From contig VFZX01000002.1 of NCBI GenBank assembly GCA_016871015.1, positions 1 through 64,000 of the forward strand: a stretch of DNA of 64,000 bases, given 5' to 3'. Of this stretch, positions 24,306-30,732 are shown piece after piece. Numbering within the stretch: position 1 is the first letter of the stretch; every line of letters begins with the position of its first letter. The translations under genes were made by a program, and so were the position numbers. Source of the DNA: Acidobacteriota bacterium (GTDB taxonomy: Bacteria > Acidobacteriota > Terriglobia > Bryobacterales > Bryobacteraceae). The notes under the pieces were generated by a model. The model saw nothing but the letters and a program-made list of their open reading frames with translations. It was not told the DNA's origin and searched no databases.

Positions 24306-25505
24306 ATGGAGCGAATGCGCCTGCTTGGGCTTGGGGCGCTGATCACGGCCGAGCTCGCGCTGGTGACACTCAGCGCTGATGGGGCCAACCTGCCACAGGG
24401 CGCTGGCGGGCTGATCGGGCTGCTCGACGACTGGGGCGCCTGGATCGCGCGGTGGATTGTGGCGTCCGGAGCGCTGTTCGGCGCGATCGCCTATTTCCGG
24501 CCGGGAACGATCGCCGTGACTGGTGACTGGACTCCGCCCAGCGGCCCATGGCTTGCGATCCATGTGGCCTGCGCGACGGCGTTCTGGCTGTTGTCACGCA
24601 GCCTGTACAGCCAGGCCGCGAGTACAGGACTGCTGATGGCCTGGATCTCAACAGGAGCAGGCACGGTGGCAACAGCAGCCGCGGCACTGATCCCACGCAC
24701 CGCCATCGGACCTTTGCTTCGCGGGGCGGCGCCGGCGATGCTGGCGAGCGCCCTGGCGGGGGCCGCGGCTTGCTGGCTCGGCGCGTTCTCACAGCGGCTG
24801 TGGCGGCCCGCGGCGGGAGCGACGTTCGTGATCGTGAAGGGACTCCTCGGAGTCCTTGTGGGTGACGTCGTTGTCGAGCCTTGGCGGAACCGTGTAGGTA
24901 CGCAGCGGTTTGGCGTCCTGATCGCGGAGGAATGTTCGGGGCTTGAAGGCATCGCGCTGTTCCTCGCTTTTGCCGTTTGCTGGCTGGTGCTGTTCCGGGA
25001 TGAGCTGCGGATCGGGCGGGCGCTGGCGGTACTTCCGCTCGGGGTGGTGGCGGTTTATCTGGCGAACTCAGTGCGAATCACGCTTCTTGTCCTGATCGGC
25101 CACGCCGGCTACAGGCAAGTTGCGGTGCAGGGATTCCATTCGCAAGCAGGCTGGATCGGATTCAGCCTCATCGCATTCGGTGTGCTCGCAGCAGCCCGGC
25201 GGTGGAGTTGGCTCTCGAAGCTCCCGCCAGCCAGCGCCAGCCAGCGCCGCCGAGTATCACAATCCAGCGGCGCCTTACCTGGTTCCGTTCCTCGCGGTCA
25301 TTGCGGCCGGAATGATTTCCGGAGCGCTGTCCGGCGGGTTCGAGTGGTTCTACGGCCTTCGTGTCGTTGCGGGCGGCGTGGCGCTTTGGATGTTCCGGTA
25401 CCAGTACAAGAACATCGATTGGTCCTGGAGCTGGCTAGCGCCAGCCGCCGGAGCCGCGGTATACGCCATCTGGGTCGCGCCGGACTGGCTGGCTGGGCGT
25501 GGTGA
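24306..25505 (+). CDS. Exosortase E half of a frameshifted exosortase E/CAAX-protease gene
   Basis: An integral membrane transpeptidase-like enzyme that should recognise and cleave C-terminal sorting signals. Multiple hydrophobic helices span the reading frame. The exosortase catalytic triad is intact: Cys210 in AEECSGLEGIALF, Arg257 in LANSVRITLL and His278 in QGFHSQAGWIGF. Homologous sequence continues to about nucleotide 25225; beyond that the frame runs through a 10-bp duplication and becomes unrelated sequence, ending at 25505. Known exosortase E proteins are fused to a C-terminal CAAX-type protease, and exactly that domain follows in another frame. The VPEID-CTERM substrate gene lies just downstream. 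As sequenced, this half could still fold as an exosortase without its protease partner. Confidence 0.8.
   Translation: MERMRLLGLGALITAELALVTLSADGANLPQGAGGLIGLLDDWGAWIARWIVASGALFGAIAYFRPGTIAVTGDWTPPSGPWLAIHVACATAFWLLSRSLYSQAASTGLLMAWISTGAGTVATAAAALIPRTAIGPLLRGAAPAMLASALAGAAACWLGAFSQRLWRPAAGATFVIVKGLLGVLVGDVVVEPWRNRVGTQRFGVLIAEECSGLEGIALFLAFAVCWLVLFRDELRIGRALAVLPLGVVAVYLANSVRITLLVLIGHAGYRQVAVQGFHSQAGWIGFSLIAFGVLAAARRWSWLSKLPPASASQRRRVSQSSGALPGSVPRGHCGRNDFRSAVRRVRVVLRPSCRCGRRGALDVPVPVQEHRLVLELASASRRSRGIRHLGRAGLAGWAW
25226..25248 (+). repeat. 10-bp tandem duplication that breaks the exosortase E/protease reading frame
   Basis: GCCAGCCAGC occurs twice in direct succession (25226-25235 and 25236-25245), followed by a partial third copy GCC. 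Deleting one unit joins the upstream frame to the downstream frame: the product would read SKLPPASAAEYHNPAAPYL straight into the protease domain. The duplication is therefore the likely cause of the frameshift. Confidence 0.85.
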
Positions 25506-25887
25506 AGAGAAAATGCCCGGGGGTCTTGCCCAGGCGCCGGAATGGCCGAGGTGGGGCTGGATCGCGCTCCGTGCGATAGGCGGTACCGTAGTCATTCCTC
25601 TTGTTGAGGAATTGGCCTTTCGCGGTTATCTCTACCGGCGGTTCGTACGGGGAGAATTCGACAATGTCCCATGGACCTTTTTCCGCTGGACAGCGTTGGC
25701 CGGTTCATCGGTGCTCTTCGGTCTGATGCACGGCGACCGCTGGATTGCTGCCTCCATCGCGGGTGCGGCCTATGCCGGACTGGTGGTTTGGCGGGGACGG
25801 CTCGGCGACGGCGTGGCCGCGCACGCGGCAACCAATTTTCTGCTTGCGCTCACCGCGGTACTTGGGCAGCAGTGGTACTGGTGGTAG
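25246..25887 (+). CDS. CAAX/CPBP-type membrane protease half of the frameshifted exosortase E fusion
   Basis: About 213 residues of open frame downstream of the 10-bp duplication, with no convincing own start codon or ribosome binding site at its beginning; an internal ATG near 25310 would remove the first membrane helix. It has several membrane helices and all three CPBP/CAAX protease motifs: EELAFRGYLYRR (EExxxR), LFGLMHGDRW (FxxxH-like) and HAATNFLLAL (HxxxN). In intact relatives this domain is the C-terminal part of the exosortase E/protease polypeptide of the VPEID-CTERM system. Whether it is translated here depends on frameshifting, reinitiation or loss of the duplication. Confidence 0.75.
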   Translation, partial: AAEYHNPAAPYLVPFLAVIAAGMISGALSGGFEWFYGLRVVAGGVALWMFRYQYKNIDWSWSWLAPAAGAAVYAIWVAPDWLAGRGEEKMPGGLAQAPEWPRWGWIALRAIGGTVVIPLVEELAFRGYLYRRFVRGEFDNVPWTFFRWTALAGSSVLFGLMHGDRWIAASIAGAAYAGLVVWRGRLGDGVAAHAATNFLLALTAVLGQQWYWW

Positions 25888-25984: not shown

Positions 25985-26149
25985 ATGAAGTTTGCTGGCT
26001 TGATGATGGTTTTGTTCGCGGTTGCGGCTCCGATGTTGGCGAGCACCCGGGCCCCGGTGGTGCCCGAGATCAACGCGGCCACGGGAGCAGCGGCGATTGC
26101 TCTGGTTTCAGGGGGAATGATGGTGCTGCGCAGCCGACGGAGGAAGTAG
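25985..26149 (+). CDS. VPEID-CTERM small protein, predicted exosortase E substrate
   Basis: A 54-residue protein that is almost entirely signals. It has an N-terminal signal peptide (KFAGLMMVLFAVAAPMLAS), the sorting motif VVPEIN at residues 25-30, a hydrophobic helix AAAIALVSGGMMVL and a basic tail RSRRRK. This is the VPEID-CTERM architecture (TIGR04161 type), with Asn instead of Asp in the last motif position. Cleavage would leave a mature peptide of about ten residues. It starts 97 bases after the exosortase E/protease region and has its own strong ribosome binding site, so it is probably the dedicated substrate. Its stop codon is directly adjacent to the convergent hydroxylase gene. Confidence 0.8.
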   Translation: MKFAGLMMVLFAVAAPMLASTRAPVVPEINAATGAAAIALVSGGMMVLRSRRRK

Positions 26150-27988: not shown

Positions 27989-29443
27989 GTGCAGATCGCT
28001 GAACTTCTCAAAAACCGGGGCGTGTTGGCTGGAATCGGTGTGCTCGCCTTTGCGGCGGGAGTGTTCTGGGTTGATGAACGGCCGCTGGCAGCGAGGAAGA
28101 AGACCCGGCCGCTGATTCCGGTCTCCAGTGGGGAAAAGGCGGGCGAACGGCCCGTGTACCCCTATTCCGTGGTCCCTGGAGGCGTTTACAGCGGCAAGGA
28201 GGCCAAGGAGGCGGCCAAGAAGGACCCGGTAGTCAAGAAGCACTACACAGAGCAAGGCGTGGATGTCGACAGTCTCGAGGCGACCAAGCTCAAGTCGGCC
28301 AAGAAGGGATATGTGTCATACCGGGTCGGTGACCGCATCTATTGGACCAAGAAGAAGGTCGATCTTGCGCCAGGCGAGCTGGTGCTGACCGATGGGAACG
28401 AAAAGATCCGCGGCCGCTGCGGCAACATGATTTCGGATAAGCCGAAATCGCCGGTGTCCCCGATCGAGCCGCCGGAAAAGGACATGAACACGCCAGCCGA
28501 GAAATTCACGCCTCCGGCGGGGGCAGCGTCGATCTTCCCCCTGCAGGGGGAAATGCCGGTGCTCGCTGAGGTCAAGGAAGCGCCGGCCAACTGGTGGCAG
28601 GAGGGATCCTCGAACGGCGGGAACAACAACCATGCGGGGGGATCCGGATCGGGCTTCAACGGCGGCGGGTCCGCAGTCGGCGGGTTCGGCGGCGGCGGTG
28701 GTGTTGGTGGTGGAGGTGGAGGCGGAGGCGGAGGCGCCGGGAGTGGAGGCGCCGGAAGTGGAGGCGGCGGTGCCGGTGCCGGTTTCCTCGCTGATTCGTC
28801 TTCAGCGGGTGCAGGCGCGGGAGAACAGCAAGGCGCGGGCGCCGGCGGCGGTGGCACCGGAACGCTGCCCGCATCCATGGCGGGGATCACCAATGTCGGC
28901 ATCAATGGTACCGGGTACAACCAAGTACTGCCGGGCGGTTCAGGCAGCTCCGTGGTGCCCATCGGCAACGGCCGGATCGGACAAGATAGCGTTCAGGTCC
29001 GCAGTGCAAGCCTGGTCTCGTGGGGAAATGACAGTGGGGTCTCGTTTTCCAACGGAGGAGCGGGCTCGGGCGGGGGCGGAACCCTCAAGCCGGATGGACT
29101 TGTGACGAATCTTGCGGACGGAGGCGGGAGCAACCTTCCGTCGCACCCGTTCAGCAAGGACAAGAATCCCACGGCACAGGGGACTCCCGCCACCCTCATT
29201 TCCACGGTCGCGCACAACCGGTCCGGAACGGATGGCACGGGCTCAAGCACTCGCGGGCAAGGCACCGCTACTCCTCCCGCCGAAGTGAAGATCACGCAGC
29301 GGCGGGATAATCCCCGGCCCGAGGCGCTGATGGACGGCGATGGAGCCGTGAACCGGGTGGCGCAGACGCCGGAGCCGGCCACGTTTGCCTTGGTCGGAGT
29401 GGCTTTACTTGCCCTAGGACTGCGAAAACGCGGATTCCGCTAA
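27989..29443 (+). CDS. PEP-CTERM protein with YSV-PGG domain and glycine-rich linker (paralogue 1)
   Basis: 484 residues, GTG start. N-terminal membrane anchor/signal (GVLAGIGVLAFAAGVFWV); a conserved domain from about residue 50 to 150 with VYPYSVVPGGVYSG, DPVVKKHY, YVSYRVGDRIYWTKKKV and NEKIRGRCGN; then a low-complexity Gly/Ser/Ala-rich region of roughly 250 residues. It ends in a textbook PEP-CTERM signal: TPEPATFALVG, a hydrophobic helix and the basic tail RKRGFR. PEP-CTERM signals are processed by exosortases in the envelope. The N-terminal domain is shared with the next gene, so the two are tandem paralogues 47 bases apart. Function unknown; an exported, Gly-rich surface or matrix protein is a fair guess. 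Confidence 0.8.
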   Translation: MQIAELLKNRGVLAGIGVLAFAAGVFWVDERPLAARKKTRPLIPVSSGEKAGERPVYPYSVVPGGVYSGKEAKEAAKKDPVVKKHYTEQGVDVDSLEATKLKSAKKGYVSYRVGDRIYWTKKKVDLAPGELVLTDGNEKIRGRCGNMISDKPKSPVSPIEPPEKDMNTPAEKFTPPAGAASIFPLQGEMPVLAEVKEAPANWWQEGSSNGGNNNHAGGSGSGFNGGGSAVGGFGGGGGVGGGGGGGGGGAGSGGAGSGGGGAGAGFLADSSSAGAGAGEQQGAGAGGGGTGTLPASMAGITNVGINGTGYNQVLPGGSGSSVVPIGNGRIGQDSVQVRSASLVSWGNDSGVSFSNGGAGSGGGGTLKPDGLVTNLADGGGSNLPSHPFSKDKNPTAQGTPATLISTVAHNRSGTDGTGSSTRGQGTATPPAEVKITQRRDNPRPEALMDGDGAVNRVAQTPEPATFALVGVALLALGLRKRGFR

Positions 29444-29490
29444 CGGGCTCCCACGCGAGGCCGATGAGTCCGGCAGGAGCCGGATTGAAA

Positions 29491-30732
29491 ATGAATCGGC
29501 GGATCGTGATTGGAGCGGCGCTGATAGCGGCGCTCGGAATCCTGGTGCTCAGAAAGGCAGGCCGCGAGGCCGGGCACAATGAGAGCGCCATGAGGGTAAG
29601 GGCAGAGAAGGTGCGGAACGTTGCACCGCGGCGCCCGGTGTATCCCTACTCGGTGATCCCCGGCGGTTCCTTCAGCAGTGCCGAGACGCAGGACTGGGTG
29701 GACTCCGATCCTGTTGTCCGGGATCACTACAGCGGGATCCGCACCAAGGATCTGCGCACGGCGGTTGTTCCCGCCAGCCGGCCGGTCTACGTCTCCTACC
29801 GAAAGGGCGAGCGTGTGTTCTGGACGGCGAAGAAGGTAACACTGGCAGCCGGGGAAACGGTCTTGAGCGATGGCAACGAACAGATCCGGGCCCGGTGCGG
29901 GAACCGGATCTCGGCGCGTCCCATGTCGCCGGTCGCCTTTGACGAGCCCGGGGAGCAGGTTCTGAATGAGCCGCTGCCCACGCTCGCCGTGAACCTCGAC
30001 TGGGGACGCAGCGGCGGATTTGGATGGACAGGTCCTGTGCCCGAGCCACTGGACCGCGGCGGGCCGGGGTCTGGAACCGGATTCATTGGATCCGGTGGCG
30101 GCGGCCCGGCCGGTTCCGGCGGCGGCGGTGGGCTCGTGGTGATGGGAGGAGTTCCCGGCATCCCATTGGGGAGTGCCGGGGGCGGGGGCGCTACAGGCGG
30201 AGGAGCTGGCGGCGCCCCCATCAGTCCTGGCGGCGGCAGCCAGACAGGAGGCCAGGGGCAGGGTCCAGGCGGAGGCAGTGGAACGAACCCAGGATCCGGT
30301 GGCGGTGGCGCAACAGGCGGTGGCGGAACGGATCCGGGAGGAGGCGGAAGCAGTCCCGGCGGGGGTGGCGGGCAGGGACAGGGGGGACAAGGCGGTCAGG
30401 GCGGTCAGGGCGGTCAGGGCGGACAGGGTGGTGGCTCCACCGGAAGCTCCGGCGGCGGCGGAACAGGTACCGGCAACGGAGGTGGCAGCAGTACAACGGC
30501 GACAGTCACCATTCCGGGCACTTCACGTCCAGCGCTGCTCCCAGAGGGACCAGAGACGTTGACTGGCGCGGGAGGAACCGGCAACGGCGGCGGCGGCGGC
30601 ACTCAGATGTCGACGATTCCCTACACTGGCTCGAACGACAACCGCCCGCCTCAACCCACTCCGGAACCGGGCACACTCTTGCTGGTGGGTGCGGGACTCG
30701 CCGCGCTCGGCTGGTTCAAACGGAAACGGTGA
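29491..30732 (+). CDS. PEP-CTERM protein with YSV-PGG domain and glycine-rich linker (paralogue 2)
   Basis: 413 residues from the ATG at 29491, which has AGGAG upstream and places the hydrophobic leader (IVIGAALIAALGILVL) at the N-terminus; an in-frame ATG at 29464 is an alternative. The conserved domain repeats that of the neighbour: VYPYSVIPGGSFSS, DPVVRDHYSG, YVSYRKGERVFWTAKKV and NEQIRARCGN. The linker is Gly/Ser/Gln-rich with short tandem repeats (GGQ triplets). The C-terminus is a PEP-CTERM signal, TPEPGTLLLVG, then AGLAALGWFKRKR. It sits two bases from the convergent FAH-family gene. Confidence 0.8.
   Translation: MNRRIVIGAALIAALGILVLRKAGREAGHNESAMRVRAEKVRNVAPRRPVYPYSVIPGGSFSSAETQDWVDSDPVVRDHYSGIRTKDLRTAVVPASRPVYVSYRKGERVFWTAKKVTLAAGETVLSDGNEQIRARCGNRISARPMSPVAFDEPGEQVLNEPLPTLAVNLDWGRSGGFGWTGPVPEPLDRGGPGSGTGFIGSGGGGPAGSGGGGGLVVMGGVPGIPLGSAGGGGATGGGAGGAPISPGGGSQTGGQGQGPGGGSGTNPGSGGGGATGGGGTDPGGGGSSPGGGGGQGQGGQGGQGGQGGQGGQGGGSTGSSGGGGTGTGNGGGSSTTATVTIPGTSRPALLPEGPETLTGAGGTGNGGGGGTQMSTIPYTGSNDNRPPQPTPEPGTLLLVGAGLAALGWFKRKR
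30391..30426 (+). repeat. 9-bp minisatellite in the glycine-rich linker
   Basis: GGCGGTCAG is repeated three times exactly (30391-30417), with a fourth copy GGCGGACAG, encoding GGQ units of the linker. Being a multiple of three, copy changes would alter linker length without breaking the frame. Confidence 0.7.

Follow-up and report, generated by a model that had tools for sequence, protein, structure and literature searches.

Two adjacent genes in the window (the whole 64,000-nucleotide stretch that was analyzed, from the genome of a soil bacterium of the Acidobacteriota) encode PEP-CTERM proteins carrying a genuinely undescribed, widely conserved domain within an otherwise known kind of protein. 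We consider it probable that both are N-terminally anchored envelope proteins whose tails are processed by an EpsH-type exosortase with its gene on a different contig (C186), and that the exosortase E (XrtE) near the pair is a separate system for a small VPEID-like protein. The two open reading frames (ORFs) lie on the same strand with 20 bp between them (Table 1). Each combines a hydrophobic N-terminal segment, as identified by a crude rule, with the shared domain of ∼105 residues, a linker rich in glycine (29% in protein 1 and 47% in protein 2), and a PEP-CTERM tail. An internal ATG at 29491 may give protein 2 a more usual signal-anchor start, and its linker contains tandem repeats of 9 and 18 bp at 30376-30432. 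A full-length comparison of the two proteins missed the domain; the domains were therefore aligned alone, and 61/119 residues were identical (51% identity; E of 1e-43 in a single comparison). An earlier, sequence-only reading had described tandem PEP-CTERM paralogues with a common N-terminal domain and Gly-rich linkers, and had proposed that the domain is an undescribed family; the coordinates proved exact, and both descriptions hold.

Table 1. Features of the tandem pair and of the neighboring exosortase E locus, in window positions
Feature	Position	Strand	Details
XrtE half	24306..25235	+	TIGR04162 profile positions 111-312
CPBP protease half of exosortase E/protease	25120..25887	+	TIGR04162 profile positions 321-513, different frame
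10-bp direct repeat, 2.4 copies	25225..25248	+	XrtE and protease frames part here
54-aa VPEID-like protein	25985..26149	+	VPEIN, hydrophobic stretch, RSRRRK
PEP-CTERM protein 1	27989..29443	+	GTG start, 484 aa
Shared domain, protein 1	28148..28471	+	
Gly-rich linker, protein 1	28472..29365	+	low-complexity sequence
PEP-CTERM signal, protein 1	29366..29431	+	
PEP-CTERM protein 2	29464..30732	+	ATG start, 422 aa
Shared domain, protein 2	29632..29949	+	
Gly-rich linker, protein 2	29950..30657	+	
PEP-CTERM signal, protein 2	30658..30729	+	

Both tails possess the PEP motif, transmembrane stretch, and basic cluster that define PEP-CTERM proteins at the C terminus. Their scores against Pfam PF07589 were 24.7 bits (protein 1) and 28.4 bits (protein 2), above the cut-off of 20.7. 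Against TIGR02595, with a cut-off of 16, protein 2 scored 21; protein 1 fell just below on the whole protein (15.8) and above in a six-frame search (21.1). In total, 13 tails in the same genome exceed the TIGR02595 cut-off, which is the usual many-to-one pattern. Recognisable domains are seldom common to PEP-CTERM proteins, according to passages of PMC1569441.

Judged by sequence, the shared domain is an undescribed family that is conserved well outside the species. Its sole Pfam match was at chance level (E of 0.22), and none of the 15 members searched had a match at 0.1; nothing credible was found in NCBIfam, where the best match (E of 0.01) was unrelated and no curated cut-off was exceeded. 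A sequence search of the PDB returned no relative. Using a 15-row profile, the domain was detected in 63/200 genomes and 23/75 genera of the order and in 9/396 genomes of the phylum. All six named relatives are MAGs of acidobacteria, of which two carry the label Bryobacterales, and in the own genome the pair accounts for exactly the two copies present. Eleven alignment positions are identical in 65/65 domain copies, including the R, R, C, and N of RxRCxN, the GG after the YPYSVxP stretch, and the S and R of VSYR. The open-access literature, a scope outside which most subscription journals fall, yielded no paper that pairs an exosortase with Bryobacter or Solibacter, none that combines PEP-CTERM, Acidobacteria, and exosortase, and no mention of VPEID-CTERM or exosortase E.

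Two AlphaFold2 models were built from 8-row alignments, one headed by each paralogue (pLDDT 88.0 and 83.9; pTM 0.81 and 0.77), and agree in predicting a pair of helices ahead of about seven short strands. Foldseek found no match in the PDB at an E of 0.001 or better for either model, and VIA-align found none at a Z of 2 or more among the 999 and 998 chains compared with the two models. A fold match among viral models (best E of 3e-3, TM of 0.33) was not credible. The absence of a fold match for these predicted structures does not prove a new fold. Conserved across several Acidobacteriota families, confidently modeled, and lacking a fold match in the PDB, the domain is well suited to a new domain entry and to structure determination.

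The adjacency of the two genes and the simple repeats in their linkers would also be expected if the pair had arisen by recent tandem duplication and had no function other than the expansion of low-complexity sequence. We regard this explanation as extremely improbable, given the 11 invariant positions and the finding that protein 1 resembles copies from other genomes (71% and 68%) more closely than it does protein 2 (51%). In the domain tree, protein 1 clusters with the L027 and L028 copies (SH-aLRT 97 and 82) and protein 2 lies on a long unresolved branch, so the two genes did not arise by a fresh duplication.

The architecture of the pair recurs in its relatives. The pair and its two nearest relatives have Gly-rich linkers; most other copies have Pro-rich ones. 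In most copies the N terminus resembles a transmembrane segment, and in roughly one-fourth it resembles a lipobox, as judged by a crude rule and by eye; the rule alone gave 14 lipobox, 47 transmembrane, and 4 neither, counts that by eye miss several lipoboxes and wrongly include L098. Some form of N-terminal signal peptide is expected in PEP-CTERM proteins according to passages of PMC3237569. A PE[PTSA] tail terminates 58/60 copies having a complete C terminus. The tail rule initially scored 10/65 copies as being without the PEP motif: three were misses of the rule (L153, L158, and L165), five run off a contig end (L032, L109, L115, L117, and L121), and two (L118 and L163) reach a stop without the motif.

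It is unlikely that the tails go uncut, leaving the proteins as uncleaved hairpins anchored at both ends with a vestigial PEP motif. Consistent with that possibility, many copies have an N-terminal anchor that looks uncleaved, extra residues follow the basic cluster of the tail in L029 and L031, PET, PES, or PEA replaces PEP in a few copies, and 5/63 domain-bearing genomes of the order sample have no match of EpsH strength. The tripartite tail, however, is retained in nearly all complete copies across several families, which argues for selection. Among those five genomes, three (G465, G567, and G586) gave no exosortase match at 1e-5, and the other two (G453 and G506) have an XrtE-type exosortase only; four are fragmented drafts, and G453 is assembled in 3 contigs.

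The processing of the tails by an EpsH-type exosortase, which we favor, calls for such an enzyme in the own genome, and one is present. The genome has two PF09721 loci, the XrtE in the window and a full-length EpsH-type exosortase at C186:9737-10486, which scores 229.9 bits against PF09721 and 197 against TIGR02602 (cut-off 105.55). The latter falls below the cut-off of exosortase A (TIGR03109; 181.8 versus 208 bits) and of any other named subtype; because it exceeds only that of the general family, it is named EpsH-type only. The assembly consists of 720 contigs, and the membership of C186 rests on it. The sequence-only reading had taken the VPEID-type enzyme to be the only exosortase, which is true of the window and false of the genome, and had offered two alternatives: that exosortase E serves both signals or that another exosortase is encoded elsewhere. 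The second is borne out by C186, and the first finds no support in this genome, where XrtE has a VPEID-like partner of its own. That reading had also named two findings that would together count against it, a dedicated exosortase elsewhere and a domain confined to the species; a classical exosortase was found, and the domain extends to 63/200 genomes of the order. As a separate observation, a gene for FliW (PF02623) adjoins the EpsH-type exosortase gene in the own genome (L041:9539-11028), and FliW-like ORFs, identified by eye only, lie near EpsH in G419 and G432 (L197 and L200).

XrtE itself is encoded in an unusual form in the window. The two halves of TIGR04162 are in different frames and score 98.3 and 114.6 bits, against a curated cut-off of 150 for one fused protein; the fused exosortase E/protease of G139 exceeds that cut-off (197.9 bits), and in relatives the XrtE and protease parts share one stop-to-stop frame of 552 to 583 residues. 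The frame break at the direct repeat may be genuine, or it may reflect a variable repeat or an error of assembly. A 54-aa ORF that begins 98 bp after the protease ORF is the best VPEID-CTERM match of the genome (23.1 to 23.9 bits against TIGR04161; next best, 13.3 bits) and is called only VPEID-like because it does not reach the cut-off of 33. A small protein with a [VA]PEI[DNS] tail adjoins XrtE in 5/5 loci examined (the window, G139, G453, G497, and G506), upstream of XrtE in four and downstream in the window. In passages of Haft and Varghese 2011 (PMC3237569), such adjacency marks a dedicated single-target system, and the 54-aa protein is probably the dedicated partner of XrtE.

A dual recognition in which exosortase E processes both the VPEID-like partner and the PEP-CTERM pair is suggested by the position of XrtE, about 2 kb from the pair. 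We judge it distinctly unlikely in view of the EpsH-type exosortase of the same genome, the broken frame of the XrtE gene, and the distribution of XrtE, which occurs in 1/9 domain-bearing genomes of the phylum sample (only G000) and is absent from the other eight. Since an EpsH-type exosortase is encoded on another contig, no dual-duty enzyme is needed in the own genome, and the idea may still apply only to G453 and its relatives. Linkage of the domain to exosortases is not conserved: at 54 other domain loci (900 kb in all), no exosortase was found near the domain gene, and in G459 a single contig carries both the domain gene and EpsH, with about 26 kb between them. The proximity of XrtE to the pair is best read as chance. 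At one of the 54 loci (L156 in G560), the gene for a stand-alone CPBP protease, a relative of the exosortase E protease half, lies on the minus strand just upstream of and divergent from the domain gene.

The co-occurrence of the domain with exosortases was assessed by P values that overstate the evidence, the sampled genomes being related and not independent: in the phylum sample, 9/9 domain-bearing genomes have a full-length EpsH-type match versus 103/297 with any PF09721 match (Fisher P of 6e-5), and in the order, an exosortase match is present in 60/63 domain-bearing versus 111/137 other genomes (P of 0.005, or 0.025 at EpsH strength). Within the order, where exosortases are common, the co-occurrence is accordingly weak. 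A line of 225 bits for "strong" exosortases was set after the table had been viewed (43/297 by eye; P of 1e-8) and was kept out of the verdict. All six named domain-bearing MAGs (6/6) have a full-length exosortase. Exosortase E/protease was found in 2/297 phylum-sample genomes, G139 and, in split form, G000; the genomes of family f28 that appear in the TIGR04162 search match its protease half only.

A genome with exosortase E alone would support dual recognition, and there is one serious candidate, G453. This assembly (3 contigs, 100% complete by label) encodes an intact XrtE with its small partner, no other exosortase at an E up to 1, a domain protein with an intact, good PEP-CTERM tail, and, in the 1.2 Mb sampled, four further PEP-CTERM proteins scoring from 31.1 to 19.6 bits (best shuffled tail, 12.4). 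G506 resembles it, although the assembly is fragmented. Two close relatives, G497 and G548, cluster with G453 in the domain tree, and their EpsH copies are 48 to 56% similar to the genus orthologue and 51.6% to each other; they are thus not orthologous to it, the EpsH proteins of G419, G463, and G575, of the same genus, having 66 to 79% mutual similarity. In genus g220, to which G453, G497, and G548 belong, EpsH has seemingly been lost or swapped for a nonorthologous copy in an XrtE-carrying subclade, XrtE itself being shown in G453 and G497 only.

Either XrtE took over in the G453 subclade, or EpsH relocated to an accessory replicon that is missing from the G453 assembly. The EpsH gene of G497 is on a second contig of 55 kb and ordinary composition, which means that the G453 assembly may have omitted its counterpart. 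The composition of the EpsH-bearing contigs of G497 and G548, with one stretch per contig compared, did not differ beyond the spread among G453 windows. That exosortase E, once the ancestral EpsH was lost, took over ordinary PEP-CTERM sorting in this subclade, the domain family included, and so reads both VPEID and PEP is a long shot. The genus around G453 is a natural test case for the reading of two signals by a single exosortase.

For the pair in the window, the reading that we favor assigns the tails to the C186 enzyme. Sec would export both proteins, and an N-terminal membrane anchor, or a lipobox in some relatives, would hold each of them. Next would come the small domain, which is mostly beta, then a long and disordered linker, rich in Gly or Pro, that spaces the anchored domain from the processed end, and finally the PEP-CTERM tail. 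The EpsH-type exosortase would cut this tail and hand the protein on, just as it would do with the remaining PEP-CTERM proteins of the genome, and exosortase E/protease would serve the adjacent VPEID-like protein as a separate, dedicated system. Passages of PMC12188702 on published PEP-CTERM systems describe an exosortase mutant in which the cell surface and the matrix are no longer held together; by analogy, the pair likely helps to attach matrix or envelope material.

The pair shares with the PEP-CTERM/EpsH system the tripartite tail, N-terminal export segment, low-complexity body, EpsH-type exosortase, and many targets per genome, but its N terminus looks less like a simple cleaved signal peptide than like a permanent anchor or lipobox, and its body bears an undescribed domain. 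The neighboring locus resembles the exosortase E/protease and VPEID-CTERM system (TIGR04162/TIGR04161) in having an exosortase, CPBP-fused in relatives, beside a small VPEID-like protein; it differs in the gene split between frames and in a small partner below the curated cut-off. Protein 1 also has a weak tail-and-linker match (29 bits) to PepA, the flocculation-associated PEP-CTERM protein (NF033554), but this is far below the cut-off of 80 and outside the shared domain.

A function could not be drawn from gene neighbors, as synteny is at genus level only and no neighbor is common to all loci. In genera g220 and g221, a response regulator gene and a VCBS/ASPIC-like gene adjoin the domain gene, and in g218 an MsrQ-like gene does so; the VCBS/ASPIC-like and MsrQ-like labels come from reading the sequences, with no family search. 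In family f28, a CAP-domain gene adjoins the domain gene in 6/6 loci (L033, L035, L036, L037, L038, and L039). It is divergent from the domain gene in each, its products have a common C terminus ending in an FL[VI]LTL stretch, and a PF00188 match was shown in L037 and L038.
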